From assembly GCA_937949535.1 (NCBI GenBank), contig CALEDI010000032.1, forward strand, positions 1 through 40,262: 40,262 nucleotides of DNA. Direction: 5' to 3'. Positions 580 through 40,262 of the stretch are shown in pieces (within the stretch, counting starts at the first letter, position 1; each line of letters begins with the position of its first letter). The notes under the pieces were generated by a model. That model was given only the letters and a program-made list of their open reading frames with translations. It was not told the DNA's origin and ran no database searches. Source of the stretch: an uncultured Lewinella sp. (lineage in GTDB: Bacteria; Bacteroidota; Bacteroidia; Chitinophagales; Saprospiraceae). Made by a program: the position numbers and the translations under genes.

Positions 580-1731
580 GTGAAAACAACAAACTTCCTC
601 CTATCCTTCCTGATCGTGCTGGCGGCCTTTGCCGCTGGCCGTTATGCCTTTCCAACCTCCCCTGCACCTGCGTCCGCGCCTGAAGAAATGACGGTTAATT
701 CGACGGAGTTCCAAGCCGCAAACCGAAGCGAGAGCCCCGCCCAAAGCAACCTCTCCGCCGAAGACGCACTGGCCTATACGCCCTCCGAGCTGCACACCAT
801 TCGGCTCTTCGAGAACGCCTCGCCGTCGGTCTGCTACATCACCACCAAGGCCCAGCGCCGCAGCTTCTGGACCCGCGACGTGAGCGAAGTCCCCGCCGGT
901 TCCGGCTCCGGTTTCGTCTGGGACAACCAAGGCCACATCATCACCAATTATCACGTGATCCGCGACGCGAGCCGCGCCATCGTAACCCTCGCCAACGGCG
1001 AGGACTACGAAGCCAAGCTCGTTGGTATCGCTAAAGAGAAGGACCTCGCCGTGCTCCGCATCGAGGCATCACTTAAAGACCTTCAACCCATCCCTGTCGG
1101 TACATCTCAAGACATCCGCGTGGGGCAGGCGGTCTATGCCATCGGCAATCCCTTCGGCCTAGACCAGACCCTGACGACCGGCATCGTCTCCGCCCTAGAC
1201 CGCGAGATCAACAGTCAAGCCAACGTCCCAATTCGCGGCGTCATCCAGTCCGATGCAGCCATCAACCCTGGCAACTCTGGCGGCCCATTGCTAGACAGCC
1301 GAGGGATGCTCATTGGTGTGAATACGGCCATTTACAGCCCGTCCGGAGCATCGGCTGGCATCGGTTTCAGTATCCCCGTTGATGTGGTGCGCTACGTGGT
1401 GCCCGATCTTATCCGCTACGGTGAAGTGCGCCGCGCCAGCCTTGGCATTGATTTCTACCGAGGTTGGCGCGGAGCAGGTTTAGCCATAGACCAAGTAGCG
1501 CCGCAAGGGCCCGCCGGTAGCCGTGGCATTCGTGGGTTGAGCCAAGATGCGCGCGGAAAATGGATGCTGGGCGATGTCCTCGTCGGCATCAACGGCAAAG
1601 CCATCAAGTCTCAATCAGACTACTTCCTAGAAATGGAAACCTTCGAGCCCGGCCAGCGCGTGACGCTCAACCTCATCCGTGATGAGCGGGAGGTTAAGGT
1701 GGAGGTGGAACTGGGGAGTTCGGTGGAGTGA
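580..1731 (+). CDS. Trypsin-like serine protease, HtrA/Deg family (S1C) with PDZ domain
   Basis: Probable periplasmic quality-control protease. The start is a GTG giving an N-terminal hydrophobic segment (residues 5-20), a signal peptide or anchor, followed by a Pro/Ala linker that contains a 17/18 copy of the window's dispersed 18-bp motif (663-680). The catalytic triad is readable: His125 in NYHVI, Asp155 in KDLAVLRI and Ser233 in GNSGGP. The last roughly 100 residues look like one PDZ domain (LGDVLVGINGKAI). At 383 residues it resembles the one-PDZ DegS/HhoA type rather than two-PDZ DegP. It stands alone, with a converging peptidase gene downstream. No inactivating change is seen. Confidence 0.93.
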   Translation: MKTTNFLLSFLIVLAAFAAGRYAFPTSPAPASAPEEMTVNSTEFQAANRSESPAQSNLSAEDALAYTPSELHTIRLFENASPSVCYITTKAQRRSFWTRDVSEVPAGSGSGFVWDNQGHIITNYHVIRDASRAIVTLANGEDYEAKLVGIAKEKDLAVLRIEASLKDLQPIPVGTSQDIRVGQAVYAIGNPFGLDQTLTTGIVSALDREINSQANVPIRGVIQSDAAINPGNSGGPLLDSRGMLIGVNTAIYSPSGASAGIGFSIPVDVVRYVVPDLIRYGEVRRASLGIDFYRGWRGAGLAIDQVAPQGPAGSRGIRGLSQDARGKWMLGDVLVGINGKAIKSQSDYFLEMETFEPGQRVTLNLIRDEREVKVEVELGSSVE

Positions 1732-1774
1732 ATGTTTGTTAAATAGACAAGAGATCAAGGCGTGCCCTACATCC

Positions 1775-1795
1775 AGTACAGTGCAAACTAAATTT
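1775..1795 (+). mobile_element. Solo end of MITE family B
   Basis: The sequence beginning AGTACAGTGCAA matches the left terminal repeat of the complete element at 23350-23514 over 21 bp, with a single base different. No second end is present nearby. The end overlaps by one base the stop codon of the M28 peptidase gene (stop at 1795-1797), so an insertion followed by deletion may have set the present C-terminus of that protein. Confidence 0.6.
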
Positions 1796-3420
1796 CACTT
1801 TCTGGAAAATTCCGAATTAGCCGCCCACTTAGGCCAGTTTTCCCCATTCGCTAGCCGCAGCCCGACTTGGTAGAGCAGTTCTCCGTCTTGTACTGCGCCG
1901 CTCAGCGGCCAGTCACCAGCGCTGTACTCATCGGCGGGCTGGTGGTAGCGTTCGGCAACGAAGCCGTCGCGCTGTTCTTTCGCGTACTCCTTTCCCTTTG
2001 TGGCGTGCTCGTAGCCGCCAGCGGCGTAGAGCGCGGGCACGCCGCCTTTGGCGAAGTTGAAATGGTCGGAGCGGTAGAAGTAACCTTTTTCGGGTTCGGG
2101 GTCCGATTGTACGTAGCGGCCTTGCTCTTCTGCGACGGCGGTAGCCAGCGCGTCCATCTCGCTGTGGCCGAGGCCGGTGATGGTGAGGTCCTTCGCTTCG
2201 CCGATGGGGTTGATGCCGTCGATGTTGATGTTAGCTACCGTCTTGTCGAGCGGATAAACGGGGTTGTTGACGTAGTAAGCACTGCCCCAAAGCCCTTGCT
2301 CCTCAGCCGTAACGAAGAGGAAAACGACGGAGCGGGCGGGCGGTTCTTCCAGCTTGCCATAGGCTTCGGCGATGGAGAGCAATTGGGCGGTGCCCGAGGC
2401 ATTGTCTAGCGCGCCGTTGTAGATCGAGTCTCCGTCTACGGCGGGGCCGACGCCGATGTGGTCCCAGTGAGCGGTATAGACGACGTACTCGTCCGAACGT
2501 TCGTTGCCGGGTAGGGTAGCGATGATGTTGTAGGACTTGTCGAAGCGGAGGTCGTTTTTGACCGTATTACTAAAGGTTGTGTTCAGCGAGACGGGCTCAA
2601 AGTCGGGGCTGGCGGCATCGGCGAACCAGCCGGTACGGTCGGCATCGGCGATGGTGAATAGTTTCTTGGCGGCGTCGAGCGAAATCCAGCCGGCGATGCC
2701 GAGTTTGGGGCTGCCGTCGTCTTCCAAGGTGAGGCGGGTACCCGACCAAGAGCTCTGGACGACGAACCACGGGTAACCGGCTGCGCCGGTTTCGTGGATG
2801 ATGAGGCAGGCATCGGCCCCTTGGCGGGCGGCTTCCTCGAATTTATAGGTCCAGCGGCCGTAGTAGGTCATCTCTTTTCCCTTGAACATGGTGGTGTCTT
2901 CGGTGTAGTAGCCGGGGTCGTTGACCATCACGACGACGGTTTTGCCCTTCACGTCCAGCCCTTCGTAGTCGTCCCAGCCATATTCTGGGGCTACAATGCC
3001 GAAGCCCGCGAAGACCATTTCGGAGTCGTTTATGCTTACGCCTTCCACAGGCAGGTCGCTGTAGGTAACGATTTCTTTTTGCTGTGTCCAGCTCAGGCTC
3101 AGGTTGCGGTCTAGGCCGATTTGTACGGCTTCGGGCTTTCCGGTTATTTCTACCATCGGTACTTCTTGGCGGTAGCTGTCGCCGTTGCCGGGTTCTAGGC
3201 CGAGGGTCTTGAGTTCTTTTTCGAGGTAGCCCAGGGTAAGGGTTTCGCCTTCGCTGAAGGGTAGGCGGCCGCCGTATTTGTCGGAGGCCAGTTCGGCGAT
3301 GTGGCGGTCGATGGTGGCGGAGTCGATCAGCGGCCCGTCATCAGTAGTGGCGTTTTCGGGGGCGCGGCCGCAGGATGCAAGGGTGAGGATTAAGGAGCAA
3401 AGGAGGAAGAGCTTGTGCAT
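1795..3420 (-). CDS. Peptidase M28 family lipoprotein (zinc aminopeptidase type)
   Basis: Secreted metallopeptidase predicted to remove N-terminal residues from peptides. The N-terminus is a lipoprotein signal with lipobox LASC, Cys17. Residues about 130-270 match a PA-type insert, and the M28 catalytic domain follows with zinc ligands in order: His318 (AHWDHIG), Asp340 (DNASGT), the Glu373/374 pair (TAEEQG), a later Asp in NINIDG, and His in YRSDHF. The 541-residue length is normal for PA-plus-M28 proteins. The lipobox region contains an 18-bp-motif variant with one extra base (3361-3379). The 3' end abuts a MITE end. Substrate is unknown. Confidence 0.93.
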   Translation of the reverse strand: MHKLFLLCSLILTLASCGRAPENATTDDGPLIDSATIDRHIAELASDKYGGRLPFSEGETLTLGYLEKELKTLGLEPGNGDSYRQEVPMVEITGKPEAVQIGLDRNLSLSWTQQKEIVTYSDLPVEGVSINDSEMVFAGFGIVAPEYGWDDYEGLDVKGKTVVVMVNDPGYYTEDTTMFKGKEMTYYGRWTYKFEEAARQGADACLIIHETGAAGYPWFVVQSSWSGTRLTLEDDGSPKLGIAGWISLDAAKKLFTIADADRTGWFADAASPDFEPVSLNTTFSNTVKNDLRFDKSYNIIATLPGNERSDEYVVYTAHWDHIGVGPAVDGDSIYNGALDNASGTAQLLSIAEAYGKLEEPPARSVVFLFVTAEEQGLWGSAYYVNNPVYPLDKTVANINIDGINPIGEAKDLTITGLGHSEMDALATAVAEEQGRYVQSDPEPEKGYFYRSDHFNFAKGGVPALYAAGGYEHATKGKEYAKEQRDGFVAERYHQPADEYSAGDWPLSGAVQDGELLYQVGLRLANGENWPKWAANSEFSRK

Positions 3421-3468
3421 GTGCTTTTTTGGTTTTGAGGGGCTTAATATACGTCCTGCCCCAACGCC

Positions 3469-4764: not shown

Positions 4765-4769
4765 GGGGG

Positions 4770-4777
4770 CGAAGATA
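4770..4777 (-). promoter_or_regulatory. Putative -7 element of the helicase gene
   Basis: On the minus strand TATCTTCG matches the Bacteroidota -7 consensus TAnnTTTG except one base and lies only 5 bp before the ATG of the helicase. The implied transcription start would fall at or within a base or two of the start codon. No clear TTG at -33 is seen. Confidence 0.35.
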
Positions 4778-5025
4778 GGGCGGTTGGTTGAGACGCTGTG
4801 CGTTGAACCTGATTTACTTAAACCGAAGCTAAAGTCGGCTAGCCAATCGTTAAAACCTAGCCTCTCGGCAAAGGCCCAAGCCCAACAAACCCTAGGCCAA
4901 GTGTTAAAGTTTCTTGTGCCAATAGGCGGCCCAGCCCTAGCGGAGCTGAAAACGGGGTAATCTTAGTTTGCCGCCCAACGTTTTATATGCGTTCACCGAG
5001 TTACCAACCCATTGAAAACGACCAC

Positions 5026-5571
5026 ATGAAAACCCTTCTTTGCACCTGCGTCCTCGCCCTCCTATCCCTTACTGCTTTCGGGCAAATAGACGCCAAGCTG
5101 AACGCCGGCTCGGCCATCACGGGCGGCATCAACCTCTCCGCCGACTTCGGCCTCGATTACAGCAACTCCCTCGCCATCGGGCTGGGGCGGGCCAATACCA
5201 AAATTACGATCAACGACAACGAATACCAGTACCTCCGCTACCGGATCATCCCCGAATACCGCCACTATTTCAACCCCCGCAACGGCGCCGACGGGCTCTT
5301 TGCCGGAGCCTACGGCCGCGTCGCTTTTTTTGAAGCCGAAGCGATCACCGAAGGCGAAGACATCGATGGCGTCCGGGTTGGGCTCGGGGCGTTGTTTGGC
5401 AATAAATGGGCCTACGACGGCGGTTTCGTGCTCGAACTCAACGGCGGCATCGGCTACAACAAACCCTTCGGCACCGACGAAAACGCACAAATAGCCAACC
5501 CTTTGCTCAGCCTAGCACCAGGCCTCGATCTCCGGCTAGGTATTCTGGTCGGCTACCGATTTAATCGGTAG
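5026..5571 (+). CDS. Small outer-membrane beta-barrel-like protein
   Basis: A 181-residue exported protein with a clear signal peptide (about residues 1-20, cleavage after AFG/Q). The rest consists of alternating hydrophobic and polar strands rich in Gly, Tyr and Phe (RIIPEYRHYF, GLFAGAYGRVAFFEA, LVGYRFNR), ending in Arg after an aromatic-containing strand. This pattern is typical of small 8-strand barrels such as DUF3575-type Bacteroidota proteins, but no family is recognised with certainty. The ATG at 5026 is preferred over an upstream in-frame ATG at 4987 because it begins the signal peptide. The signal-peptide codons include a 16/18 copy of the 18-bp motif (5041-5058). It converges with the GT2 gene, leaving 8 bp between stop codons. 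Confidence 0.7.
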   Translation: MKTLLCTCVLALLSLTAFGQIDAKLNAGSAITGGINLSADFGLDYSNSLAIGLGRANTKITINDNEYQYLRYRIIPEYRHYFNPRNGADGLFAGAYGRVAFFEAEAITEGEDIDGVRVGLGALFGNKWAYDGGFVLELNGGIGYNKPFGTDENAQIANPLLSLAPGLDLRLGILVGYRFNR

Positions 5572-5579
5572 TTTGGGGC

Positions 5580-6293
5580 TTACCTAAACCGCAAACTCAA
5601 TACGCCCATAATGGCTTCTTTTACGATGGAGCCGTGCATTTTGCTGGCCCCCAAGATGCGGTCGGTAAAGATGATCGGTACCTCAACGATTTTATAACCG
5701 AGCTTCCAAGCCGTGTGCTTCATCTCGATTTGGAAGGCGTAGCCGATGAATTCGATCTTGTCGAAATCAATCGCCTCCAGCACGGGGCGGGTGTAACACA
5801 TGAAGCCGGCGGTAGAATCTTTGACGGGCATCCAGGTGATGAGCCGAACGTATATGGACGCGCCGTAGGAAAGAAAACGCCGATCAAAAGGCCAGTTTTC
5901 TACGCCGCCACCTTTGGTATAACGAGAGCCAACGGCTACGTCTCCGCCGCCGGTGTGACAGGCTTCGCGTAGGCGCACCAAATCCTTAGGATTATGGCTG
6001 AAATCGGCGTCCATCTCAAAAAAGAAGTGGTAGTCTGCCGATTTTGCCATGCCCCAGCGGAAGCCGTCGAGGTAAGCCGTTCCCAAACCCAGCTTTCCGG
6101 CTCGCTGCAATAGGTGCAGCCGCTCGGGGTATTCCTGTTGCTTCGCCTTGATGATGTCGGAAGTGCCATCGGGCGAGCCATCGTCTACGATCAGGAGGTG
6201 AAAAAGGTAGGGTAGCGTGAAGACCGTATCGATCATTTTAGCAATGTTCTCCTTTTCGTTGTAGGTTGGTATGATTACGAGGCTGTCGCTCAC
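5580..6293 (-). CDS. GT2 family glycosyltransferase, polyprenol-phosphate mannosyltransferase-like
   Basis: Inverting GT-A glycosyltransferase of the dolichol/polyprenol monophosphate mannose synthase type, transferring a sugar from a nucleotide donor to a lipid phosphate at the inner membrane face. Seen: the N-terminal VIIPTYNEKENI, the acidic motif LIVDDGSPDGT, the DxD-like FFEMDADFSHNP, and the acceptor region SRYTKGG plus DSTAGFMCY. At 237 residues it lacks the C-terminal membrane domain of DPM1-GtrA fusions and so resembles soluble or peripheral single-domain enzymes. The donor sugar (mannose or another) cannot be decided. A good -7 box (6321-6328) precedes it. Confidence 0.9.
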   Translation of the reverse strand: MSDSLVIIPTYNEKENIAKMIDTVFTLPYLFHLLIVDDGSPDGTSDIIKAKQQEYPERLHLLQRAGKLGLGTAYLDGFRWGMAKSADYHFFFEMDADFSHNPKDLVRLREACHTGGGDVAVGSRYTKGGGVENWPFDRRFLSYGASIYVRLITWMPVKDSTAGFMCYTRPVLEAIDFDKIEFIGYAFQIEMKHTAWKLGYKIVEVPIIFTDRILGASKMHGSIVKEAIMGVLSLRFR

Positions 6294-6320
6294 TGGGGCA
6301 GGTTATTTTTTCTTGAGGTG

Positions 6321-6328: not shown

Positions 6329-6392
6329 CCGAAAGTGGATAGGTTGGGGGGAATAGTGAGGCCGTTGGGCCCCGGAGGGGTCTCATATCTAG

Positions 6393-6474: not shown

Positions 6475-6572
6475 GGCGGGGCCGCAGGTGCAAAGAGCGG
6501 TTTGGGCATTGCCTCTAAAACCCAAGAGGTCGGTTCGGTCTCAGAACCTCCCCCTGCACCTGCGCACGCGCC
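6475..6572. repeat. Inverted pair of the dispersed 18-bp motif
   Basis: Bases 6475-6492 carry the motif on the minus strand (17/18) and bases 6555-6572 carry it on the plus strand (16/18), facing each other across 62 bp of sequence that codes for nothing recognisable. A similar head-to-head arrangement occurs at 17283-17370. Confidence 0.65.
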
Positions 6573-17270: not shown

Positions 17271-17674
17271 GGGTGCTGGCTTGGCGCGGCCGCAGGTGCA
17301 GGGGAGGGGTTTGGGGTTGGGGTGGTGCTTAAGAGTAGGGTGTTGCTTCAAACTTTGATGCTGCACCTGCTGCGCACGTAGAAATCAGCAATTTCCTCCT
17401 AATGGCTTTCGACATGAACGATGAAAAAAATCCTACCAACCTTCAAAGACCTATCAACCCGGAGCTTAGCCCGTCTCCAAAGGCACTTCAGGTTTGTTGG
17501 AGCTTGAGGAGCGTCTTTTGCTTGCTTCTTCTCCAACCATGTCTTCGTCGGAGCGCGTACCAAAAACTTTCCTCGCACCTGCGGCCGCGCCCAAGAAACA
17601 CCCGCCTGACCAATCTACAAACATAAAACCCCGTAAATTTTACCGATCTTGCCCGCCCACCAAACCGTTTTTCA
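17271..17674. other. Gene-free spacer with three 18-bp-motif sites
   Basis: About 400 bp. It contains an exact motif copy on the minus strand (17283-17300), a half copy TGCACCTGC on the plus strand (17362-17370) and a 17/18 copy on the plus strand (17574-17591). A frame at 17421 (28 codons, MKKILPTFK...) exists but has no support. I see no other gene. Confidence 0.5.
17283..17300 (-). repeat. Dispersed 18-bp motif, exact copy (intergenic)
   Basis: Reads TGCACCTGCGGCCGCGCC on the minus strand, 18/18. It includes the 8-bp palindrome GCGGCCGC. Confidence 0.8.
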
Positions 17675-19942
17675 ATGACGACTATCCAGGCGAGTATCCT
17701 TGAGCAATTGCAAGACATCCGAGGCGGAGCATCCTACCATGAAGGCGCCTTAGGCCCGGAGCCGTTTCGGATAGAAATACGCGGCCTCGGGCCGCTGACT
17801 TTCCCGCTGAACCCGATACAAAACCGGGTACTGATGAGCTACGGAATCGCGGCCCCCTTCGGGAAAGGACACGAAACGATTGTGGACGAATCGGTACGCA
17901 AAACGTGGGAAATAGACGCCGCAGACCTTGTGTTGAAAGACAAAGGCTGGAAAAAACGGATAAAATCGTTTTTGGCCGAAGTAGCTCAAAAAATGGACCT
18001 TACGGTTGGCATCAAAGCCAAGCCCTACAAACTACTGATTTACGAAACGGGCGGCTTCTTTGCCGAGCACCAAGACTCGGAAAAAATACCCGGAATGTTC
18101 GGTACGCTACTTGTTGGGCTACCGAGCGAACACGCTGGCGGCGAAATCGTGCTAGACCCCGGAGATGGCGAGCGGGTAACGATTGATTTCTCTCAAGACA
18201 ACGCGACGAGCTTCCCCGCCGTGGCCTTCATCGCTGACCGGAAGCACGAAATCCTGCCGGTGACGGACGGCTACCGCACCGTACTGGTTTATAATTTGGT
18301 GTATGCCAAATCCCCCGCCACTCGGCCAAAGACAGCAACCGTAGCGACGAGCCTCTCGGAAACGCTACAAGATTTGAAAACGACGGAATACCAGATTATT
18401 GCGCTAGACCACCAGTATACAGACACGAACTTTAGCGCGAACACCCTCAAAGGCAACGACGTAGCCCGCGTCGCGGCCCTCCGGGCCGCAGCCAAAGCGG
18501 CGGGGATGAATATCCGTGTCGGCCTCATTGAGCACCACGAAACGTGTAATTGGGAAAATGCGCACGAGTTTGGTTCCGGTTACGACTACTATTCCCGGAG
18601 GCGCAGCTACCGGAGTGAGCGGGTACAGAAAAGCGAGCCCGAAAGTTTCTCCGAAGTTGAAGTTGGGGAATCTTACGACGGCCACCTAACCATGGGGCAA
18701 TGGCTAGACGGCGACGGCCCAGACTTGGGAGCACTCAACATTGACGCTGATGAGATTCTGCGCAGACCCGGCCACGAAAAAGACGAACCCATTGAATGGT
18801 CGGTAGAAGGCTATCAGGGCAACTGGGGCATGACGACGGATTTTACCTACCGCTACGCGGGCGTCATCTTGTGGCACCCTGCGGCTACTGGGCGGGTGCT
18901 TGGGCTGTTGCCGCTGGCGGGCCGTGTCGCTTGGGCGGCAGACTACGCAGCCCAACTGAAGAAGAAACCTAAAGATGCTGGCTTGCGGCAGCAGCTCTTG
19001 TCGTTGGAGGAGAGCATACAGGCAGCCACCAGCCAGAACGCCCGCAAGCAGGTTGACGCGGCACCGCTGACGGAGATGCTGTCTGGTATTGTCCGGACAA
19101 AAGGCATGACCGCAGACGAACTCTATGCGCGTTGGGACGGCTATTTTTTCGAGCACTTTAATTCGTTTGCGGCGAAAGACTGGAAGACTCTGATAGATGC
19201 TTTTGGATCGGGCAAGGTATCTGATTTGTTCACCCGTGTAGGCAATGAGCCGCTCAAGGGGTTTTGGGTCAGGAAAGAAGACTTCGTAGTAGGACTGCTT
19301 CAGAATATGAGCAAAATGGCGAAGGACAAGCACGAAGGGACTAGGAAGGTGGGCCTTGCCCAAGTGGCAAGAATCCCGACAATGCTCCATGTCCACTATC
19401 CAGAGGGAGATTTTAGTGCAGAGGTGGTTTGGGCCGTCCTCAAAACGGCTTCCCAGCATGAAGTGTCAGAACAATGGGAGGAGCTAACAGGTAAGTGCTT
19501 GCTGGCGCTGGTGGAGCAGCCGGAGTATTTGCACGACACGCTCGGCAAAGCATTGAAAAAAGCAAAGCCTGTTTCGGCGCTCTACTCCAAGCTCTTTGAC
19601 GCAACGATTGATGAACTGAAAAAGCGATTGAACAATCCTCCCCAGCCCTTTACCGACTATGCCCGAAAGGTGCCAAAGGGCTACGAAAACGACACGAAAG
19701 CGTATCCCGACTTCTTAGCCTTTCTTATTGATCCCGTACAGAAGACCTTTGACCTGAAAAAGCCACAAAGCGACCGAGATCAGTTGTCGCGGTTTATTGA
19801 GTGGAACAAACTTGACGTGCGCCAAGAAACCATCCGAACACGCCCCGCCCACACCCTCCGGCTCACTAAAACCGATGCGTCTTATCAGCGTGCTTTGCGG
19901 CAAAGGGAGCAGGATGAGGTGTTGCTTAAAGCGATGGGGTAG
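17675..19942 (+). CDS. Large 2OG-Fe(II) oxygenase, prolyl 4-hydroxylase-like N-terminus
   Basis: A 755-residue cytoplasmic protein. The N-terminal ~210 residues hold a 2-oxoglutarate/Fe(II) dioxygenase core: YKLLIYETGGFFAEHQDSEK (His132, Asp134), GMFGTLLVGLPSEHAGGEIVL, then His191 and the 2OG-binding Arg201 in DGYRTVLVYNL. This complete HxD...H...R set predicts an active hydroxylase. Such sequences resemble 2OG oxygenases best known from fungi and scattered bacteria. The remaining ~540 residues are unrecognised, mostly helical, and may bind the target. It stands as a single gene after a terminator and two motif sites. Substrate unknown. Confidence 0.8.
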   Translation: MTTIQASILEQLQDIRGGASYHEGALGPEPFRIEIRGLGPLTFPLNPIQNRVLMSYGIAAPFGKGHETIVDESVRKTWEIDAADLVLKDKGWKKRIKSFLAEVAQKMDLTVGIKAKPYKLLIYETGGFFAEHQDSEKIPGMFGTLLVGLPSEHAGGEIVLDPGDGERVTIDFSQDNATSFPAVAFIADRKHEILPVTDGYRTVLVYNLVYAKSPATRPKTATVATSLSETLQDLKTTEYQIIALDHQYTDTNFSANTLKGNDVARVAALRAAAKAAGMNIRVGLIEHHETCNWENAHEFGSGYDYYSRRRSYRSERVQKSEPESFSEVEVGESYDGHLTMGQWLDGDGPDLGALNIDADEILRRPGHEKDEPIEWSVEGYQGNWGMTTDFTYRYAGVILWHPAATGRVLGLLPLAGRVAWAADYAAQLKKKPKDAGLRQQLLSLEESIQAATSQNARKQVDAAPLTEMLSGIVRTKGMTADELYARWDGYFFEHFNSFAAKDWKTLIDAFGSGKVSDLFTRVGNEPLKGFWVRKEDFVVGLLQNMSKMAKDKHEGTRKVGLAQVARIPTMLHVHYPEGDFSAEVVWAVLKTASQHEVSEQWEELTGKCLLALVEQPEYLHDTLGKALKKAKPVSALYSKLFDATIDELKKRLNNPPQPFTDYARKVPKGYENDTKAYPDFLAFLIDPVQKTFDLKKPQSDRDQLSRFIEWNKLDVRQETIRTRPAHTLRLTKTDASYQRALRQREQDEVLLKAMG

Positions 19943-21545: not shown

Positions 21546-23318
21546 CTACATCTCCTCTTCCACAAAGTACATATCAATCAGTCCTTTATTCTTGGCTTCT
21601 ACCTTGCCCCGATAGGTACAGCGGAATTTATACTTGATCCGATCGTGGGTAGACTCGGAGATATTGACCCTGCCGGGCTCGCTTTGGCTTTCTATCCGGC
21701 TGGCTACGTTCACGGTGTCGCCCCAGATGTCGTAGGCGAACTTGCGGGCTCCCACTACGCCTGCTACTACGGGGCCGGTGTGCAGGCCGATGCGGCCACT
21801 GAAAAACGGCAGGCCAAGCTCAGACCGTTTCTGCCCTTCGGTGCTCAAGAATTTCTGCATATCTAGGGCGGCGCGGATGAGGTCGTTGGGCAGGCTCTTG
21901 CGGTCAGACAAACCGGAGGCGGCCATGTAGGCATCCCCAATGGTTTTAATTTTTTCTACGCCGGGGTAGTTGTCCATGATCTTATCGAAAGCTTTGAAGC
22001 AGACGTCTAGCTCCTGCACTAGGGCTTCGGGGCCGAGGCGTTCGGCGGTTTTGGTGAAGTTCACGAAGTCGCAGAACAGCACCGTTGCTTCGGGGAAGCG
22101 GCGGGCGCGGGCTTTGCCGGTTGCTTTGAGTTCCTCGGCGATTTCTACGGGCAGGATGTTCTTCAGCAGGTCGTCAGACTGTTGCTTGGCGGCATCGAGT
22201 TCGCTGTTGGCGGCCTCCAGTTTTTTCGCACTGCGTTGCTTTACGCGGAAGCGGGAGAAGAACGTCAGGGCCAGCAGCAGCAGGGCGGCCCCGGCGCCGA
22301 TGGCGGCGTAGAGCTGGGTGGTTTGCCGCTCGGCCTTCATCTCTGCTTCTTTGCGGACGAGCTCGGCCTCCATGAGTTGCTCGCGGGCTTCGGTAGCAAT
22401 CGTGCGTTGCTCTAGGGCTTCGCGGCCGAGGGCACTGATTTCCTTTTTGCTTTCGGCTACGCGGCGTTCTACAACGGCTTTTTCCTCTTGGGTTTGGCTG
22501 AGTTCGCGGTTGCTTTCTTCTAGCTGTTTGGCGCGTTGGGCGAGCTGTTCGGTGCGCGTCAGGTTTTCTTTCTCTAGTTGTTGGTTGGTTCCTTTCAGTT
22601 GTTGATTGGAGCCGCTGAGGCGGTCTTTTTCGTTTTGTAGGCGGTTTACTTCTCCGGCGAGTGCTTTGGTTTCGCTTTCAATTTCGCGCTTGCGGCGTTG
22701 CAGGGCTGCCTGTTCGCGTTGGAGTTGCGCGCGGAGCGCGGAGAGGCTGCGGTCGTCGCCGTTTTTGGTGAAATAGTCTAGTGCGCGCTGGCTGATGGCG
22801 GCGGCTTCGCGGTAGTTACGGGCCTTGGTGGCTAGGCGGTTGCGCTCGGCTACGGCGAGCATGATGAGGTCGGGCTGGCGGGCTTTCATCCCGAAATCGA
22901 CGGCTTCGGCCATAAATTTATCCGTGTTGCGTTCGTCGCGCTGGTTGCGGTAGGCAAGGGCGAGGGTGTAGGCGGCGGGGCCGGCCAGTTTATTGTCTGG
23001 GAGGCGCTTGGCGGTGGTGTAGAGTTGCTTGCTGAAGGTGACGGCAAGGGCTTTGTCTTCCTTGCGGCTAGATTCGAGCAACTTCCCCGTCAGGTCATAC
23101 AGAATGCCGTAGCGTTCGGCGTCGGAGTCCGCAGCGTCTAGCGCCTCGATGAGTTCGGGGGTGCTTTGGGCGGAGAGTAAAGGGGGAAAGGCCAAAAGGA
23201 GTAAGGGGAGTAGGAGCCAAGCTTTATTCCTTTTACCCTTTACGCCCTTATTCTGGGCGCGGCCGCAGGTGCAAAATTGGTTGAAGAAGCAGGGGAATTG
23301 AGCGCTCATGAGGCGCAA
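21546..23318 (-). CDS. Membrane-bound class III adenylate/guanylate cyclase
   Basis: A 590-residue protein: an N-terminal hydrophobic segment and helical TPR-like sensor region (to about residue 190), a long coiled coil (about 200-330), one transmembrane helix (LYAAIGAGAALLLLALTFF, about 340), and a C-terminal class III cyclase domain (408-590). Catalytic residues are present: metal-binding Asp417 (LFCDFVNFT) and Asp462 (IGDAYM), base-recognition Lys458 and Asp530 (YDIWGD), and Asn537/Arg541 (NVASR). The Lys/Asp pair suggests adenylate cyclase, producing cAMP. The start is uncertain: the first 30 residues include an exact 18-bp motif encoding CTCGRA. Confidence 0.9.
   Translation of the reverse strand: MRLMSAQFPCFFNQFCTCGRAQNKGVKGKRNKAWLLLPLLLLAFPPLLSAQSTPELIEALDAADSDAERYGILYDLTGKLLESSRKEDKALAVTFSKQLYTTAKRLPDNKLAGPAAYTLALAYRNQRDERNTDKFMAEAVDFGMKARQPDLIMLAVAERNRLATKARNYREAAAISQRALDYFTKNGDDRSLSALRAQLQREQAALQRRKREIESETKALAGEVNRLQNEKDRLSGSNQQLKGTNQQLEKENLTRTEQLAQRAKQLEESNRELSQTQEEKAVVERRVAESKKEISALGREALEQRTIATEAREQLMEAELVRKEAEMKAERQTTQLYAAIGAGAALLLLALTFFSRFRVKQRSAKKLEAANSELDAAKQQSDDLLKNILPVEIAEELKATGKARARRFPEATVLFCDFVNFTKTAERLGPEALVQELDVCFKAFDKIMDNYPGVEKIKTIGDAYMAASGLSDRKSLPNDLIRAALDMQKFLSTEGQKRSELGLPFFSGRIGLHTGPVVAGVVGARKFAYDIWGDTVNVASRIESQSEPGRVNISESTHDRIKYKFRCTYRGKVEAKNKGLIDMYFVEEEM
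23256..23273 (-). repeat. Dispersed 18-bp motif, exact copy (inside cyclase gene)
   Basis: TGCACCTGCGGCCGCGCC on the minus strand, in the frame that gives Cys-Thr-Cys-Gly-Arg-Ala near the N-terminus of the cyclase. Confidence 0.8.
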
Positions 23319-23347: not shown

Positions 23348-23349
23348 CT

Positions 23350-23514
23350 AGTACAGTGCAATCTAAATTTCATCGCCTTTTCTGCGGCGTCTTTTATCGG
23401 CTGGCTGCGTTGGTAAAATCCTCATTTAGCTACGGCTAAACTCCGGTTTTACCGCCTTGCCAGCCAATAAAATCCACCAGCACAAAAGTCGACAAATTTA
23501 AATTACACTGTACT
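23350..23514. mobile_element. MITE family B, complete
   Basis: A 165-bp non-coding element whose 21-bp ends begin AGTACAGTG and match at 19 of 21 positions. Almost the whole element is self-complementary: TTTTATCGGCTGGC pairs with GCCAGCCAATAAAA, and CATTTAGC-TAC-GGCTAA lies at the centre. Solo ends occur at 1775-1795 and 32640-32656. It lies in the spacer between the cyclase and accB start codons (divergent genes), 49 bp from accB. Confidence 0.85.
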
Positions 23515-23563
23515 GGATTACTATTATACCTATATTGAGAACCAAAATTAAACCCGTCCGTAC

Positions 23564-24088
23564 ATGACGTTGAAAGAAATCCAAGAGTTGATCAAGCTCG
23601 TTGCCAAAACCGAACTCTCCGAGTTCCGCTATAAAGATGGAGACTTGAAATTGCACATTCGTGGTAAGTCCTACGTCGGAGGCGGAGGGAACAACAACCA
23701 AGTTGGTACCGGGCCTTCCATCATCAATGTCCCGGCAGCAGCACAGGCCTACGGCCCCGCTCCGGCGGCTCCCATTGCGGCAGCAGCGCCTGCTCCCGCA
23801 GCCGCCCCTGCACCTGCGGCCGCGCCCGAAACAGACGATGAAAGCCGCTACGTAGAAGTGAAATCGCCGATGATCGGTACCTTCTACCGCTCGCCTTCCC
23901 CAGACAAGGAGGCCTACGTAAAAGTAGGGGACATGATCAAAAAAGGCGATACGGTGTGCATCGTGGAAGCCATGAAATTGTTCAACGAAATCGAATCTGA
24001 AGTAAGCGGTAAAATTGTGAAGATGCTCGTAGAAGACGCATCCCCGATTGAGTACGACCAGCCCCTTTACCTCGTCGACCCTTCGTAA
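23564..24088 (+). CDS. accB: Acetyl-CoA carboxylase biotin carboxyl carrier protein
   Basis: Carries biotin for acetyl-CoA carboxylase, the first committed step of fatty acid synthesis. The N-terminal domain (MTLKEIQELIKLVAKTELSE) and the C-terminal biotinyl domain (about 95-174) with the biotinylated Lys138 in VEAMKLF are joined by a long Ala/Pro linker (residues 57-88). The linker codons include an exact copy of the dispersed 18-bp motif (23809-23826), adding PAPAAAP. Length of 174 fits the family. accC follows on the same strand but after 322 bp including MITE A, an unusually loose arrangement for this pair. Confidence 0.95.
   Translation: MTLKEIQELIKLVAKTELSEFRYKDGDLKLHIRGKSYVGGGGNNNQVGTGPSIINVPAAAQAYGPAPAAPIAAAAPAPAAAPAPAAAPETDDESRYVEVKSPMIGTFYRSPSPDKEAYVKVGDMIKKGDTVCIVEAMKLFNEIESEVSGKIVKMLVEDASPIEYDQPLYLVDPS
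23809..23826 (+). repeat. Dispersed 18-bp motif, exact copy (inside accB)
   Basis: TGCACCTGCGGCCGCGCC, 18/18, in the frame giving PAPAAAP in the accB linker. Confidence 0.8.
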
Positions 24089-24097: not shown

Positions 24098-24261
24098 TAT
24101 ACTTGGCTCGGCCACCAGAGGTGGAGTTTTGCCGGATGCTTTTTCCGTCTCACTTCGTTAAAAAGCCTCGCCAACACTTAGGCGTTGCCTGCGTTTTTTG
24201 CCTCGCGAGACGAAAAAATCACCTCGGCAAAACTCCACCTCTGGTGACCGAGCCAAGTATA
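24098..24261. mobile_element. MITE family A, complete
   Basis: A 164-bp non-coding element with 37-bp terminal inverted repeats that differ at one position. The ends are TATACTTGGCTCGG inward, and the outermost TA on both sides is consistent with a TA target duplication, the hallmark of IS630/Tc1-mariner-type transposition. No transposase of that family is in the window. It separates accB from accC and could alter their co-expression. Partial copies are at 12577 and 23329. Confidence 0.87.
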
Positions 24262-25947: not shown

Positions 25948-26949
25948 TTAGGCTGCCATTTTCAGCAGCTCGATGGTTTTCTTGATGCCTTCTTCTTCGG
26001 GGAGGTCAGCGCCTTCGTATTCTACGCCGATCCAGCCGGTGTAGCCGGCGTCTTTTACGGTTTTGAGGATGCGTTTGTAGTCGGATTCTTTTTCCCATCC
26101 GTCGGCGTCGAAGACGTTGGACTTGGCGGAGACGGCCTTGGCGTAGGGCATGAGTTCTTGCACGCCCTGGTAGCGGTCATAGGCTTCGAGGCAGTTGCGC
26201 CAGTTTCCTTCTTCGCGGGTGATGCAGAAGTTGCCGAAATCGGGCAGGGTTCCGCAGTTGTCCATGCCGGTATTTTTGATGACGTTGGCGAGCCATTCAC
26301 CATTGGAGCTGTGGCCACCGTGGTTTTCTACGATGACGTTCATTCCTTGGGTTTTGCCGTACTCGGAGAGTTTGGCGAGGCCTTCGGTAGCGGCTTTAGC
26401 GACCTCCTCGGCGGTGCCTTGGCCTGCGGCGTTGACGCGGATGCTGTGGCAGCCAAGGAACTTGGCGGCGTCTACCCATTTGTAGTGGTTCTCTACGGCT
26501 TGCATGCGTTTCTTCGCGTCGGCATCGCCGAGGTTGCCCTCGCCGTCGCACATGATGAGGACGGAGGTTACGCCGTTGTCGTCTGCGCGTTGCTTCATTT
26601 GCTTCAGGTAGTCCATGTCGGTGGCCTTGTCTTTGAAGAACTGGTTTACGTACTCAACGCCCGTTAGGCCGAAGGTTTCGCGGGTGATTTTGGCGAAGTC
26701 TAGGTTGTCCAGCTTGCCGGCTTGGAGGGTGCGGTGGAGGCTCCACTGGGCGAGGCTAATATCGAACCACAGGTTCGCTTCGTGGCTGTCGGAGGCGGTG
26801 GGCGCGGCCGCAGGTTCAGGGGAGGTTGTCGTGGCGGCGTCGCCTTCGGAGGCCGTGCCATCCCCACAACTGAGGAGGCCGGTAGTACCGAGAAGGCCGA
26901 GGGCCAGACCGGCCTTGGAAGTAGTGCGGAGGAAGTTTCGTCTTTGCAT
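25948..26949 (-). CDS. Secreted TIM-barrel sugar isomerase/epimerase-like protein
   Basis: Xylose isomerase-like TIM barrel family protein. The N-terminus has a twin-arginine signal ([14 protein letters not shown]) joined to a lipobox (LLSC, Cys28), so export folded and lipid-anchored is likely. A Ser/Ala/Pro linker follows, including a 17/18 copy of the 18-bp motif (26801-26818). The barrel carries [19 protein letters not shown] (Glu and His metal ligands), GTLPDFGNF and [12 protein letters not shown] (Glu). These fit divalent-metal isomerases. The start at MQRR is chosen because it begins the Tat motif. Substrate unknown. Confidence 0.88.
26801..26818 (-). repeat. Dispersed 18-bp motif, 17/18 copy (inside the TIM-barrel gene)
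   Basis: TGAACCTGCGGCCGCGCC on the minus strand, encoding PAAAP in the linker after the lipid attachment site. Confidence 0.7.
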
Positions 26950-30865: not shown

Positions 30866-30944
30866 AGCGCGAAGCGCGGTTCCGGGGCGCAGCCCTGGAG
30901 GCCGTAGGCCGGAAGGGCTGCGCCCCGGAACCGCGCTTCGCGCT
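30866..30944. terminator. 31-bp perfect inverted repeat inside the insertion sequence
   Basis: The arms 30866-30896 and 30914-30944 are perfect complements over 31 bp with a 17-base loop that itself contains GGCCGTAGGCC. It begins 6 bp after the transposase stop codon. It is far stronger than a normal terminator; a role blocking transcription entering from outside (protecting against excess transposase) is plausible. Confidence 0.75.
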
Positions 30945-32377: not shown

Positions 32378-32622
32378 AAAACAGTTTGGCGGCGCTCCGC
32401 GCCGCACCAGAAAAAAACCACCTTCTCTACCCCGGACTTCGTCCGGGGCGAACCAAAGGGACGGTCGCTACGCGACTAGGAAGGGCAATTCATGCATGAC
32501 GCGACCAAGAAGGATTCGTCCAAGGCGAACCCAAGGGCGGTCGTTACGCGATAAGTGGTGCAGGTCGGAGTTCTTATTTTTCTGAAAGGCCGGCTCATCA
32601 ATCCCTCCCCTGCACCTGCGGG
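32378..32622 (+). repeat. Direct repeat D, copy 1
   Basis: About 245 bp that recurs in the same orientation at 33247-33498. It starts AAAACAGTTTGGCGGCGCTC and ends CTCATCAATCCCTCCC plus an 18-bp-motif-like sequence. The first 140 bp are nearly identical, the middle diverged. Internal hairpins include CCCCGGAC-TTC-GTCCGGGG and GTCGC-TAC-GCGAC. Confidence 0.8.
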
Positions 32623-32639
32623 CGTCCGATTGGTGATTT

Positions 32640-33246: not shown

Positions 33247-33498
33247 AAAACAGTTTGGCGGCGCTCCGCGCCGCGCCAGAAAAATGCCCACCTTCTCTAC
33301 CCCGGACTTCGTCCGAGGCGAACCAAAGGGACGGTCGCTACGCGACTAGGAAGGGCGATTCATGCATGACACAACCATAAAGGTTCGTCCGAGGCAAACC
33401 AAAGGTAAGTCGTTACGCGACAAATGAAACAAATTAAAATTCCTGTTTTTATGAAAGGCCCACTCATCAATCCCTCCCACTGCACCTGCGGCCGCGCC
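33247..33498 (+). repeat. Direct repeat D, copy 2
   Basis: Same orientation as copy 1 and closest to it over the first 140 bp. It ends in an exact 18-bp motif (33481-33498). Positioned immediately upstream of the minus-strand membrane protein gene, so it also holds that gene's promoter region. Confidence 0.8.
33481..33498 (+). repeat. Dispersed 18-bp motif, exact copy at the end of repeat D
   Basis: TGCACCTGCGGCCGCGCC, 18/18. In D copy 1 the same place (32611-32628) has a decayed version, 14/18. Confidence 0.8.
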
Positions 33499-35179: not shown

Positions 35180-35251
35180 GGAGCCAAAAAACAGCCCATC
35201 CCATTAAAAACCGATACATTGGGCGTTGTATACCTCAATTTCCTAACGAAT

Positions 35252-38200: not shown

Positions 38201-38269
38201 CATTTCGACTTTCGGGACGCCTACTTCTACGTCAAGTACAACTACGAAACGGAAGCGATGAAAATTTGA
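35252..38269 (+). CDS. 1005-residue protein of unknown function, possible effector-associated domain at the N-terminus
   Basis: No signal, membrane helix or P-loop is visible, so it is a large soluble cytosolic protein. The first ~75 residues (LLELLENDRTDRLVKDLKDYF, FTLLLNQHEELRSYYISGT, FKNITALKRAF) resemble EAD11, an effector-associated domain that links sensors and effectors in bacterial conflict systems; this match is by eye. Residues about 245-330 look like TPR helices (AQDAYLAHHYEEAHDLFLRV, LLITYYKKHRGALL). The rest is unrecognised, with a well-ordered C-terminus (FDFRDAYFYVKYNYET). The vWA gene ends 72 bp upstream, the amidohydrolase starts 57 bp downstream. The ATG at 35252 is chosen over a TTG at 35219. 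Confidence 0.8.
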   Translation: MSSRAHLLELLENDRTDRLVKDLKDYFSVRPVLHPTHFTLLLNQHEELRSYYISGTEQFKNITALKRAFVTSAAGFIRQNVGNEPWQGTTREEDINLNLREVKDKLLAILRQNGLSALIEFSKRIISAPTTSKRLSEIMTGVDKINFQYGERLRQITPDTKTASGFGEAVRLLDITEEKKKKLLDQTVAIIQDIEEDDLVGRWKLTFRNLESTFSWYRSAGERQLLLSPLEVIQVPAYLSANEQYLQYKRLMIQAQDAYLAHHYEEAHDLFLRVRNEIDPESAQLYEMLLITYYKKHRGALLLDNYLFNKTKTKNPDRKDNPLYQLYLYASRFHLLQRSQRTGGAALSSNAESDKKPGSDLIAQPAYPVFSYTGEQNLKTIAQELLLRLAKRHMRILDQISTGLTTREKATAELWRCISTARDIYQYLQPDYVVFTTIISELLGAGASFWITTDHIGQPANVYPEFDAIGHFRAILGMVANERFRAQQEDRTISSPSQQPTQEQVQAAISADLAALISDALRIKYEQLPEAPSPSPDEPAVTYQPYIELLLSYRVADALLPGSGLFFDVPMLEIGKAQGKVDWFELGRARELYTRFTAPAFDALEYVEDLCARQDKHAHTQTIGSAVEFLIQTYYHRLKDKTFNLYRRINLMGEFDLARAGRQRVGEILYCYRNWQICFDVNEDEAFLKKCHDEVVGNGILFWWSIGRHGLHANPRNLPHGIVFDAREELNWLNEQCGVSNRTLDLLTITDNYMNRIVIPRSNEIARRTHSQLNPSAEDQHAILHFAEKVLQLAIAVGPLAPLEEYVYDELVRENTFRWYDIQGDRFINEERIHQHGIDAIPALEEAMRTFPESGRFAKEHLQDILALNRREDILISYQEDFSRNQEKNYEEDTIALFTEMIERLIAYHKVTGNAKLLSMPYEELVTGKGKVRWARIPWTLLAIDKVLTVEKDDDGKAAHIGVKRWRIISGRIRPRPRVKKIAHFDFRDAYFYVKYNYETEAMKI

Positions 38270-38326
38270 CGCCCTTCCCCCAACCATAGCTTACCTTAGC
38301 CGCCAACAAACCAAATTACCACTAAA

Positions 38327-39532
38327 GTGAGCTACCATACCGCAGACTACCTGTACCCCATAACCTCGCCGCCCATTAAAAACGGCATCATCTCGCTCGA
38401 CGAAAACGGCCGGATTACCGAAATCCTCGATCCGGCCTCTCCAACCTTCATTGCACCTGCTGCCGAGCCCATAAAACATGAAGGCATCCTCATCCCTGGC
38501 TTCATCAATACCCACTGCCACCTAGAGCTTAGCCACTTGGTTGGGAAAAGCCAAACGGGCAAAACCTTGCTACCTTTTCTGGTAGACGTAGTCACTATGC
38601 GCGAAACAGCCCAAGCAGAAATTGACGCTGCCATCGAAAAATGGGACGCCTATATGTGGGCCAACGGCATCCAGGCCGTCGGAGACATTTGCAATAAACT
38701 AGACACCGCGCCCGTGAAGCGGAAAAGCCCCATCCGCTACTACAGTTTCGTAGAGATGTTCGATTTTCTGCAGCCCGAGCGCGCGCAAGCCAGTTTCGAC
38801 GACTACAAACTGGTCTACGACGAGCAAGCCGGAGAAGACGGCAACGCCAAAAGCGCAGTTCCCCACGCTCCCTACACCGTCTCCGATCCGCTCTACGGCC
38901 TCATCAATGCGGTGAACGAGGGCACCGAAACGGTCTCCATCCATAGCGAAGAAACGCCAGCAGAAATGGAGCTTTTCCGTTCCGGAACCGGCCCATTCCA
39001 CGCCTTTTTCCAAGGTTTCGGGACGAACATAGACCACTTCAAAGCGACCGGGCAGGGCTCCATCCACCACGCGATCAGCCGGATGAACCCCGCCAACCGC
39101 ACCATCTTCGTCCACAACACCCTCACCGATGAAGCCGGGATTGAGGCCGCAACGAAATGGGGCCAAAACGGTGTCTTCTTCGCCACCTGCCCCAACGCCA
39201 ACCTGTACATAGAAAACCGCCTGCCCCGCTACGATGTCTTCATCGGCACCGACGCAAAAGTCACCGTCGGGACAGATTCTCTGACCTCCAACTGGCAGCT
39301 CTCCATCCTCGAAGAGTTGCGCACCATCAGTAAATACCAAAGCTATGTTCCGTTTGAAACCCTCCTGACTTGGGCCACCATCAACGGGGCCGAAGCCCTT
39401 CAGTTTGACGACGAACTCGGGAGCCTCGAAGTTGGCAAAAGCCCCGGTTTGGTCCTGCTTTCCGGCTTAGACGGCGCATCGCCCGAAGCCTTTAAGATCG
39501 GAGCCCGGGCAAGGGTGGAGCGGGTGTTGTAA
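38327..39532 (+). CDS. Metal-dependent amidohydrolase, nucleoside or aminofutalosine deaminase-like
   Basis: A 401-residue TIM-barrel amidohydrolase starting at GTG. Metal and catalytic residues: His63-x-His65 ([10 protein letters not shown]), His180 (VPHAPYT), His206/Glu208 (IHSEE), His263 (FVHNTL) and Asp317 (VGTDSL). The beta-sandwich region surrounds the barrel at both ends ([28 protein letters not shown]). It is closest to the chlorohydrolase/guanine deaminase/aminodeoxyfutalosine deaminase set; the last would give a role in futalosine-type menaquinone synthesis, but no other mqn gene is in the window. The codons for FIAPAAEP contain a 16/18 copy of the 18-bp motif (38452-38469). Confidence 0.85.
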
Positions 39533-39539
39533 ACAACAA

Positions 39540-39574
39540 ACAGCCCCGCCACTCTTCACGAGTAGCGGGGCTGT
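39540..39574. terminator. Terminator hairpin behind the amidohydrolase
   Basis: ACAGCCCCGC pairs perfectly with GCGGGGCTGT over a 15-base loop, 7 bp after the amidohydrolase stop codon. No long T-run follows. It lies between convergent genes. Confidence 0.75.
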
Positions 39575-39587
39575 CATTATCGGATTA

Positions 39588-39642
39588 AGGGCCTCTCGGC
39601 CGATGTCGTCGCTTCGCGACGACAATCACGGCCAGAGACCCT
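39588..39642 (-). terminator. Two-level hairpin behind the T9SS cargo gene
   Basis: An outer stem AGGGCCTCTCGGCC/GGCCAGAGACCCT (with small bulges) encloses the perfect inner stem GTCGTCGC-TTC-GCGACGAC (39605-39623). It lies 7 bp after the stop codon of the minus-strand gene, which it probably terminates. Confidence 0.65.
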
Positions 39643-39649
39643 CGACCCA

Positions 39650-40262
39650 TTATTCCACAACGATCATCTGCTTAGTAGCAGTGAAGTTGCCAGAAGTCAA
39701 CGTGTAAGCGTAAACACCCGCAGTGCCGATGTTCTGTACTTCAACGCGGTTCAGACCAGCAACGCCATCGACTTCAACCGTCTTCACTAGGCGGCCAGCA
39801 GCATCCTGAATGTTCAGGGTAGCAGGGCCAGCAGCGGCCAGTTCGAAACGGATAGAAGTAACGTCTACCACTGGGTTGGGCGTGTTCTGGTGAAGCACAT
39901 TTTGCGCGGTCGCAGGTGCAAAGTCGGTGTTGAAGGCAAGGTCAAGACCGTTGCTCGTTCCGTTCAGGGCAACACCTTCGCGAACCGTTACGGCATCGCT
40001 CAGCGTGATCATCTCGGACACAAGACCAGCAGCAGTAGCGCGTACCTCAAGGCTAACAGCACCAGCCTCACGGAGTACAACCGCTACAAGACCTTCACCA
40101 GCACGGTTCAGGTTCATACCGCCTGCACCAATCACATCAGCAGAGATCAACTCAAGACCAGCAGCAAGCTCAATCGTGCCCTGGAAGCCCGCAGTCTGCG
40201 TGCCGTCAAGAAGGATCGTGCGCGTCTGGCCGCTTTCAAGCTTAGCGTCGTCTACGTTCAGT
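39650..40262 (-). CDS. C-terminal part of a type IX secretion cargo protein
   Basis: The gene runs off the right edge, so only the last ~203 residues are seen; its N-terminus is missing. It has a cohesin-like beta-sandwich segment (LNVDDAKLESGQTRTILLDG, TIELAAGLELISADV), an APATAQ linker with a 16/18 copy of the 18-bp motif (39903-39920), and a type A sorting domain (QNTPNPVVDVTSIRFELA, ATLNIQDAAGRLVKTVEVDG, GVYAYTLTSGNFTATKQMIVVE). The C-terminal signal directs export by the T9SS and surface attachment, as typical for Saprospiria. Confidence 0.9.
   Translation of the reverse strand, partial: LNVDDAKLESGQTRTILLDGTQTAGFQGTIELAAGLELISADVIGAGGMNLNRAGEGLVAVVLREAGAVSLEVRATAAGLVSEMITLSDAVTVREGVALNGTSNGLDLAFNTDFAPATAQNVLHQNTPNPVVDVTSIRFELAAAGPATLNIQDAAGRLVKTVEVDGVAGLNRVEVQNIGTAGVYAYTLTSGNFTATKQMIVVE

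Follow-up and report, generated by a model that had tools for sequence, protein, structure and literature searches.

A dispersed 18-bp motif of Lewinella-like bacteria as a probable directional DNA-uptake sequence

An uncultured Lewinella sp. of the Saprospiraceae carries an 18-bp sequence scattered over both strands of a 40,262-nt stretch of its DNA (contig CALEDI010000032.1 of assembly GCA_937949535.1), referred to here as the window. The motif is a real, genus-wide feature, and it is very probably functional at the DNA level. From comparison of genomes, we consider it most likely (probability about 0.6) that the 18-mer is a directional DNA-uptake sequence, marking self-DNA and maintained by biased uptake; the uptake itself, its receptor, the direction of action and the drive behind the copies are what we infer.

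Under this explanation, the 18-mer would form the core of a signal, up to ~43 bp long, that makes DNA transfer between cells of the Lewinella-like genus directional and sequence-specific and is most likely read by a putative outer-membrane or surface receptor during natural transformation. Copies would form by point substitution wherever the protein or intergenic sequence tolerates the motif, and they would spread and persist through preferential uptake and recombination of motif-bearing DNA (biased uptake, or molecular drive). Each copy would serve the DNA on one side, or one strand, over ~3 kb. A nearby second copy in the same direction would be redundant and would decay, an opposite-direction copy would not be redundant, and back-to-back pairs would jointly serve both sides. 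A change of receptor would shift the dialect or replace the motif outright, as may have happened in one genus member, G010.

A genus-wide motif and its dialects

Twelve sites in the window match the 18-mer with at most three mismatches (four exact, four with one mismatch, four with two). Dinucleotide-shuffled versions of the window held a mean of 0.08 such sites, and none of 100 shuffles reached 12. A first-pass annotation of the window had described scattered copies on both strands, and all 12 sites lie where it placed them. It had also listed a weak copy at 32611 (+), found here as a 14/18 match, and a copy with an extra base at 3361 (-), which matches at 14/18 without a gap and reads as the motif plus one base. 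The pattern is larger genome-wide. In the window's own genome (G000; 4.09 Mb in 335 contigs, 88% complete) the exact 18-mer occurs 305 times (142 on the plus strand, 163 on the minus), and 1001 times with up to three mismatches, compared with 0 and 24 in the reversed-pattern controls. The random-level counts that the annotation had named as speaking against its claim are not what the genome holds.

In the genomes covered here, the motif is confined to the genus of the window. Among 60 genomes searched, the exact 18-mer was present in 19, every one of this genus; besides G000, there are 65-328 copies in G002, G004, G005, G007, G009, G014 and G018, and 1-16 in eleven others. The genus members G001 and G003 have zero. 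The degenerate pattern GCACCNGCGNCNNCGCC, searched in 120 genomes, has 140-1407 copies in 18 of the 21 genus genomes, with strand totals balanced genome-wide and 0-18 copies in the reversed controls across the 21. Counts are low in the remaining three genus members (29 in G006, 6 in G010, 5 in G001), and each of the 99 genomes from other genera holds 0-8. A k-mer search of other-genus loci, mostly 12-21 kb long, gave no clear comparable motif; such one-stretch searches are weak, as single 20-kb stretches of G004 and G010 each revealed the motif of that genome, and one of G013 did not.

Species dialects share the conserved frame GCACCnGCGnCnnCGCC. K-mer counts in sampled stretches of low-count species gave other spellings, among them GCACCyGCGGCAGCGCC in G013 and motif endings CCCCGCC in G008 and G017. 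In 80 kb of G003, GCTCC.GCG.C..CGCC was found four times and the GCACC form not once, yet the GCACC form occurs 140 times across the whole G003 genome. The nearest accC relatives found by name are Lewinellaceae bacterium SD302, which is probably G010, and metagenome genomes of Saprospiraceae or Lewinella. In the accC tree, G001 and G006 are well-supported sisters within a clade of motif-bearing species, with the forks around them open, and G010 is a long, poorly placed branch. The near-absence of the motif in G001 and G006 is best read as a loss, as judged from this one gene.

Conservation extends past the 18-mer itself. At 86 G000 sites with at most two mismatches (428,527 bases sampled), there is a C at -7 (0.79), a C at -3 (0.86), a pyrimidine at -1 and a C at +18, with A-rich flanks at -12 to -9 and +20 to +24. 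The most variable core position is 10 (0.57). In iterated weight matrices for six genomes, the downstream A/T-rich tract is kept in most species and the upstream tract varies.

A very short mobile repeat, resembling miniature inverted-repeat or repetitive extragenic palindromic elements, was among the origins that the annotation offered, and the many near-identical copies would suit it. The 35-bp flanks of 78 G000 sites share on average 11.5 bases upstream and 9.8 downstream, compared with 8.8 for random stretches, so the surroundings do not travel with the motif, apart from two pairs whose upstream flanks agree at 30 and 27 of 35 bases. Orthologs tell the same story. For 35 of 183 coding sites, homologs of at least 45% identity were available in sampled stretches of other genomes, giving 168 pairs (counted in both directions, with accB supplying many). 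At the motif site 137 of these (81.5%) are ungapped, 31 have a partial gap, and none has a gap of motif length (at least 5 residues), which argues that copies are gained and lost mainly by substitution. The homolog carries the motif at or beside the same place in 21 pairs. Control positions 30-40 residues away are ungapped in 89% of 648 cases, so motif sites occupy somewhat gappier places. The accB linker was useless as a test of insertion versus substitution, as it holds indels of various lengths. With dialects that also differ genome-wide between species, a mobile repeat is highly improbable, and this part of the annotation is not supported.

Coding copies lie in several frames, where they encode Ala/Pro linkers, GAAAGA, or (L)LC-TCGRA at apparent signal peptides (judged by eye). 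The use of several reading frames and both strands, inside and outside genes and with species dialects, supports the annotation's deduction that the 18-mer functions as DNA.

The genus member G010 has a different motif. Its core, CAAAGTAGC, occurs 25 times in 100 kb, and the reversed core does not occur there. Genome-wide, CAAAGTAGCMNNG has 1377 copies in G010 (691/686 by strand) compared with 7 for the reversed pattern, and at most 42 in each other genome of the 120. The motif logo shows a T-rich tract upstream and a conserved G and T downstream. One genus holds two unrelated motifs of like style and density. The highest CAAAGTAGCMNNG count outside G010 is that of G060, from another genus (42, versus 15 reversed), possibly a weak relative of the G010 motif.

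Orientation-dependent spacing of the copies

A weight-matrix scan of 1.61 Mb from six genomes (G000, G013, G019, G008, G004 and G014) gave 446 sites, compared with 10 in a reversed-sequence control. Same-strand intervals average 5,952 bp with a coefficient of variation (CV) of 0.51, which is 0.84 under uniform placement. Relative to uniform placement, the density of same-orientation pairs is 0.12-0.14 within 1 kb, ~0.3 at 1-2 kb, 0.53 at 2-3 kb and 0.94-1.48 farther out. Opposite-orientation pairs within 1 kb reach 1.85 behind a copy (back-to-back) and 0.74 ahead of it (facing); outside 1 kb their density is scattered, at 0.53-1.49.

The orientation of neighbouring sites alternates 282 times and agrees 87 times, with 5 intervals of at most 40 bp dropped. 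Alternation was rejected as the primary signal: when minus sites are shifted against plus sites, it is still 0.706 (standard deviation (sd) 0.016, maximum 0.751), compared with an observed 0.764. As the shift preserves so much of it, most of the alternation follows from regular per-strand spacing, and the remainder goes with the excess of back-to-back pairs. The strand bias relative to the origin that the annotation had proposed to check took a different form, with strong local alternation and no replichore-like polarity in the sampled stretches. Both strands are used throughout 48 sampled 20-kb stretches (47/46 in G013, 30/27 in G019, 12/7 in G008). Replichore polarity was considered and rejected for G019:C1, where the matches listed, from its first 396 kb, were plus-only; the DNA itself carries copies on both strands.

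The position of copies relative to genes does not account for the exclusion. In G000, 46 of 102 sites are intergenic, while intergenic DNA makes up 14.5% of bases by a simple open reading frame (ORF) caller. Over the 446 sites, both orientations are overrepresented ahead of gene starts and past gene ends, copies are scarce immediately inside the ends, and the opening 100 nt of genes show enrichment for the gene orientation only. If the motif were a transcription or translation element marking where transcription units begin, it would produce the same-orientation excess seen from -200 to +100 of gene starts (ratios 2.7-3.9). It would not be expected to show enrichment upstream of starts in the opposite orientation (up to 2.8), or just past gene ends in both (3.3 and 4.0). 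A gene-context null, in which each site was relocated to a randomly chosen gene of its own genome, offset and relative orientation being kept (500 replicates), also fails to reproduce the exclusion. Five same-orientation pairs were observed within 1 kb, compared with 75.4 in the null (sd 9.1, minimum 54), and 40 at 1-3 kb, compared with 124.5 (sd 11.4). Transcription-unit starts were rejected as the cause of the exclusion, and such an element is a very improbable function for the motif. Back-to-back pairs within 1 kb exceed the same null (58 versus 37.5, sd 6.6).

Label shuffling gives a similar picture. In the three larger samples, same-orientation pairs within 3 kb all fall under the shuffled range (G000 16 versus 34.9, G013 14 versus 29.7, G019 7 versus 20.0). 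The three small samples lie inside it (G008 3 versus 5.6, G004 3 versus 7.0, G014 2 versus 6.2). For the plain pattern in all 21 genus genomes, there are 10 same-orientation pairs versus 37.9 (sd 4.8, 326 sites). In G010, neighbouring copies of its own motif alternate 22 times and agree 9 times (p = 0.03, 36 sites).

Where same-orientation copies do lie close together, one of them tends to be weaker than expected. In the 45 same-orientation pairs within 3 kb, the weaker member has a mean minimum z of -0.90, versus -0.56 by chance (sd 0.14), and it is also weaker than in opposite pairs (p = 0.019). Motif score increases a little the farther away the nearest same-orientation copy lies (Spearman 0.15, p = 0.002). 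This looks to us like decay of redundant copies, which would argue for one-sided or strand-specific action over ~3 kb; each copy appears to act one way. The back-to-back excess hints, weakly, that this action runs toward the 3′ side of the motif as written.

Directional action would also be seen with the main rival, a Chi-like recombination or repair site, read in one orientation by a helicase-nuclease that is processing a DNA end. Each orientation would then tile the chromosome, and either end of a break would encounter a site a few kb away at most. Redundancy that chiefly affects same-orientation copies less than ~3 kb apart, two orientations that are about equally common, and the absence of the motif from one island all agree with this, and Chi sites are themselves directional, dispersed and lineage-specific. 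Known Chi sites are 5-8 nt long, however, whereas here 18 bp are strongly conserved and flanks weakly so, in a series of dialects, and we know of no requirement for flanking A-rich tracts at Chi. Occurrence in one genus only among the 120 genomes, with an unrelated motif in G010 of that same genus, also speaks against a Chi-like site, which we regard as unlikely. HIP1 of cyanobacteria is similarly a highly iterated short motif, a palindromic octamer of debated role; unlike HIP1, the motif described here is non-palindromic overall and apparently directional.

A nucleoid-binding site was another suggestion of the annotation. A site for chromosome organization, such as a bent-DNA binding site spaced for compaction, would fit spacing that is more even than random (the same-strand CV above), and the A-rich flanks in G000 lie ~33 bp, or three helical turns, apart. 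This gives no reason for orientation-dependent exclusion, nor does it explain the dialects and the different motif inside one genus. The 5 and 29 copies in G001 and G006, and the many copies within coding sequence in several frames, are also difficult to reconcile with it. A nucleoid role keeps a small share of our expectation and is improbable. Of the options first offered for the 18-mer, an uptake or recombination signal is the one favored.

The copies in the window

Ordered by position, the 14 copies noted in the first-pass annotation switch strand in 11 of 13 steps, a count that leaves aside further weak matches (4-5 mismatches) in the window. Pfam agreed with the annotation's gene names for the trypsin-like protease with PDZ domain, M28 peptidase, DUF3575 protein, adenylate/guanylate cyclase, biotin carrier, TIM barrel, amidohydrolase and type IX secretion system (T9SS) tail (Por_Secre_tail). 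The copies are as follows.

663..680 (+): copy, 17/18, in the 5′ part of the trypsin-like/PDZ protease ORF (580-1731)
3361..3378 (-): imperfect copy, 14/18 ungapped, one extra base, in the 5′ part of the M28 peptidase ORF
5041..5058 (+): copy, 16/18, near the N-terminus (signal-peptide-like by eye) of the DUF3575 protein ORF (4987-5571)
6475..6492 (-): copy, 17/18, between ORFs; back-to-back with 6555 (+)
6555..6572 (+): copy, 16/18, between ORFs; back-to-back with 6475 (-)
17283..17300 (-): exact copy, between ORFs; back-to-back with 17574 (+)
17574..17591 (+): copy, 17/18, between ORFs; starts 101 bp ahead of the ORF at 17675
23256..23273 (-): exact copy, near the N-terminus of the cyclase ORF
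23809..23826 (+): exact copy, in the Ala/Pro linker of accB (biotin carboxyl carrier); G014 has a copy in the same place, G007 none
26801..26818 (-): copy, 17/18, in the 5′ part of the TIM-barrel protein ORF
32611..32628 (+): weak copy, 14/18, immediately 3′ of the left arm of a local duplication
33481..33498 (+): exact copy, immediately 3′ of the right duplication arm; starts 196 bp before the VWA-protein ORF
38452..38469 (+): copy, 16/18, in the 5′ part of the amidohydrolase ORF
39903..39920 (-): copy, 16/18, in an ORF with a T9SS C-terminal sorting domain (Por_Secre_tail)

The local duplication comprises 32378-32609 and 33247-33478, ~870 bp apart, with the 18-mer exact after the right copy and 14/18 after the left. 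It is a small natural case of two same-orientation motif copies, one of them weaker.

Other repeats were seen in the same DNA. A ~167-bp repeat at 23349-23515 has at least 12 further copies of 96-99% identity in G000 and weaker relatives in the genus, and it looks like a miniature inverted-repeat element. Between accB and accC, at 24098-24261, lies an inverted repeat with 37-nt arms that are 97% complementary, and related short matches are repeated many times in G007. A strong hairpin occupies 30866-30944 (38-nt arms, 92% complementary, 3-nt gap). Elsewhere in the genus, 12-mers recur 57-58 times in 40 kb of G002:C27 (L209-L210), probably as a long direct-repeat (CRISPR-like) array.

Transformation genes and relation to known systems

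ComEC (PF03772) is present as a single copy in all 21 genus genomes, and DprA (PF02481) in 20; the miss, G009, is 55% complete. This gene content counts for the uptake reading. Four of the 48 sampled 20-kb stretches lack the pattern (L225, L220 with GC 0.528, and two of G008). The first of these, positions 3300001-3320000 of G013:C14, is a low-GC island (0.37, compared with 0.577 in three other G013 stretches) without a single motif copy, which may also speak for uptake.

Transformation of Riemerella anatipestifer offers a guide to what else might be involved; here and below, our statements about published systems follow extracts of the cited papers. R. anatipestifer requires ComEC, DprA, ComF and RecA, among others, and also a DUF5689 protein and a neighbouring predicted outer-membrane protein (PMC8459023). 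Of 39 genomes outside the genus, 30 match DUF5689 (PF18942), with 15 of the 30 below 1e-30; of the 21 within it, G010 alone does. The G010 gene adjoins one for a protein with carboxypeptidase-regulatory and TonB-plug-like matches, both below Pfam cut-offs, and at E <= 1e-20 this partner is likewise found in G010 alone among the 21. The possession by G010 of both a surface pair and another motif fits a change of uptake receptor. G001 and G006 have neither the pair nor the motif in number. DUF5689 was rejected as receptor of the 18-mer, as it would be expected in motif-bearing genomes and was not found there. The genes around comEC in G000 were listed and included no receptor candidate. In G031, DUF5689 has a similar outer-membrane-like neighbour (by eye); at L281 6814-14875 (G031:C19) the two stand beside phospholipase-D-type nuclease-like and endonuclease/exonuclease/phosphatase-like proteins (names by eye).

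The donor could read the motif instead. A packaging-start (pac-like) site, used one way by a gene transfer agent or another donor-side DNA exporter, would have a directional territory of a few kb and would spread via biased transfer, and the result would look alike. The Riemerella-type surface genes, in which G010 contrasts with the rest of the genus, suggest instead that the recipient does the reading, and we think a pac-like site quite improbable.

Several observations weigh against a directional uptake sequence. The literature that we searched gave no uptake or transformation data for these bacteria. Orientation-specific exclusion is unexpected of a classical uptake sequence, as uptake by H. 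influenzae ignores orientation (PMC1939737). Facing pairs within 1 kb are also below the gene-context null (21 versus 35.7, sd 6.0), and exclusion is looser for the G010 motif, with 6 same-orientation and 17 opposite pairs within 3 kb (36 sites, a count without null comparison). ComEC and DprA do not track the motif, since both are present in the near-motifless G001 and G006. The genus yielded no full-length type IV pilus motor (PF00437; other pilus families were not searched); the genus matches cover fewer than 100 of 370 positions at ~19-25 bits, some barely at the curated cut-off, and full-length PF00437 (type IV pilus/type II secretion ATPase) was found only in G035, G041 and G046 of 60 genomes. 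None of the 18 motif-bearing genomes yielded the Riemerella-type surface pair; the uptake reading therefore needs some substitute for it, and none was found. The link between surface genes and motif is a single contrast, G010 against the rest. No comparable motif was seen in 120 kb of G021, which has DUF5689, or in 60 kb of G055, which lacks it; a G021 candidate, CAG[CG][CG][CT]GTCG, was rejected, its flanks not being conserved by eye.

The motif nevertheless shares much with the uptake signal sequence (USS) of Pasteurellaceae. Both are very numerous on either strand, show no genome-wide polarity, combine a core with flanking A/T-rich tracts, lie within genes many times, favor gene termini and differ between relatives (PMC7811141, PMC1939737, PMC2346458). 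In H. influenzae, the sequence is flanked by AT tracts (PMC7811141), orientation is without effect on uptake (PMC1939737), and sites have ~1-kb mean spacing with overlapping inverted pairs in both arrangements (PMC7811141, PMC1939737). The evenness of these sites is disputed; even spacing was claimed by Karlin et al., as cited (PMC7811141, PMC1939737). Unlike the USS, the core here is 18 bp rather than 9-10 bp, its density is lower, and same-orientation copies exclude one another within ~3 kb, whereas H. influenzae sites are ~1 kb apart with orientation-independent uptake.

The DNA uptake sequences (DUS) of Neisseriaceae form dialects with a shared core that are tied to lineage (PMC3630211); they are lacking in genes of recent acquisition and are spaced in keeping with conversion fragments (PMC2397512). 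Core-sharing dialects congruent with lineage and absence from some relatives are common to DUS and our motif, and the rarity of DUS in accessory DNA is a possible further likeness (PMC3630211, PMC2397512). The motif here is unrelated in sequence, and one genus member has an unrelated motif. ComP, the DUS receptor, belongs to type IV pili, for which no full-length motor was found in this genus; ComP itself was not searched. Given this pilus result we do not claim membership among uptake sequences, and say that the motif would work like one.

Riemerella, of the Flavobacteriaceae, offers a parallel in phylum, in ComEC and DprA, and, for G010, in a DUF5689 protein next to a predicted outer-membrane, carboxypeptidase-regulatory protein, a likeness by domain and adjacency only (PMC8459023); the 18-mer-bearing genomes differ in that this pair was not found in them. 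R. columbina prefers its own DNA, and the extract of that report lists just A/T-rich 7-10-mers, with no uptake sequence established (PMC7965970). Established uptake sequences belong, in the sources consulted, to Neisseriaceae and Pasteurellaceae, both with type IV pili. None was reported for Bacteroidota in the literature searched, which left out preprints and most subscription papers.

It is tempting to picture a Bacteroidota lineage without a detectable type IV pilus motor that has a directional self-DNA code and a chromosome tiled twice, once per direction, with an unrelated code in G010, whose surface uptake genes differ; we would put this full picture at slightly under even odds. If the 18-mer is a true uptake sequence, it would represent a further origin of such sequences, in a phylum with largely unknown outer-membrane DNA import. 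The two unrelated motifs in one genus, and the near-absence of the motif in G001 and G006, would then form a natural experiment for a receptor hunt. Orientation-specific spacing would record, on the scale of the genome, that DNA import or processing has a direction, and it opens to direct test the long-standing question of what keeps uptake sequences in place.

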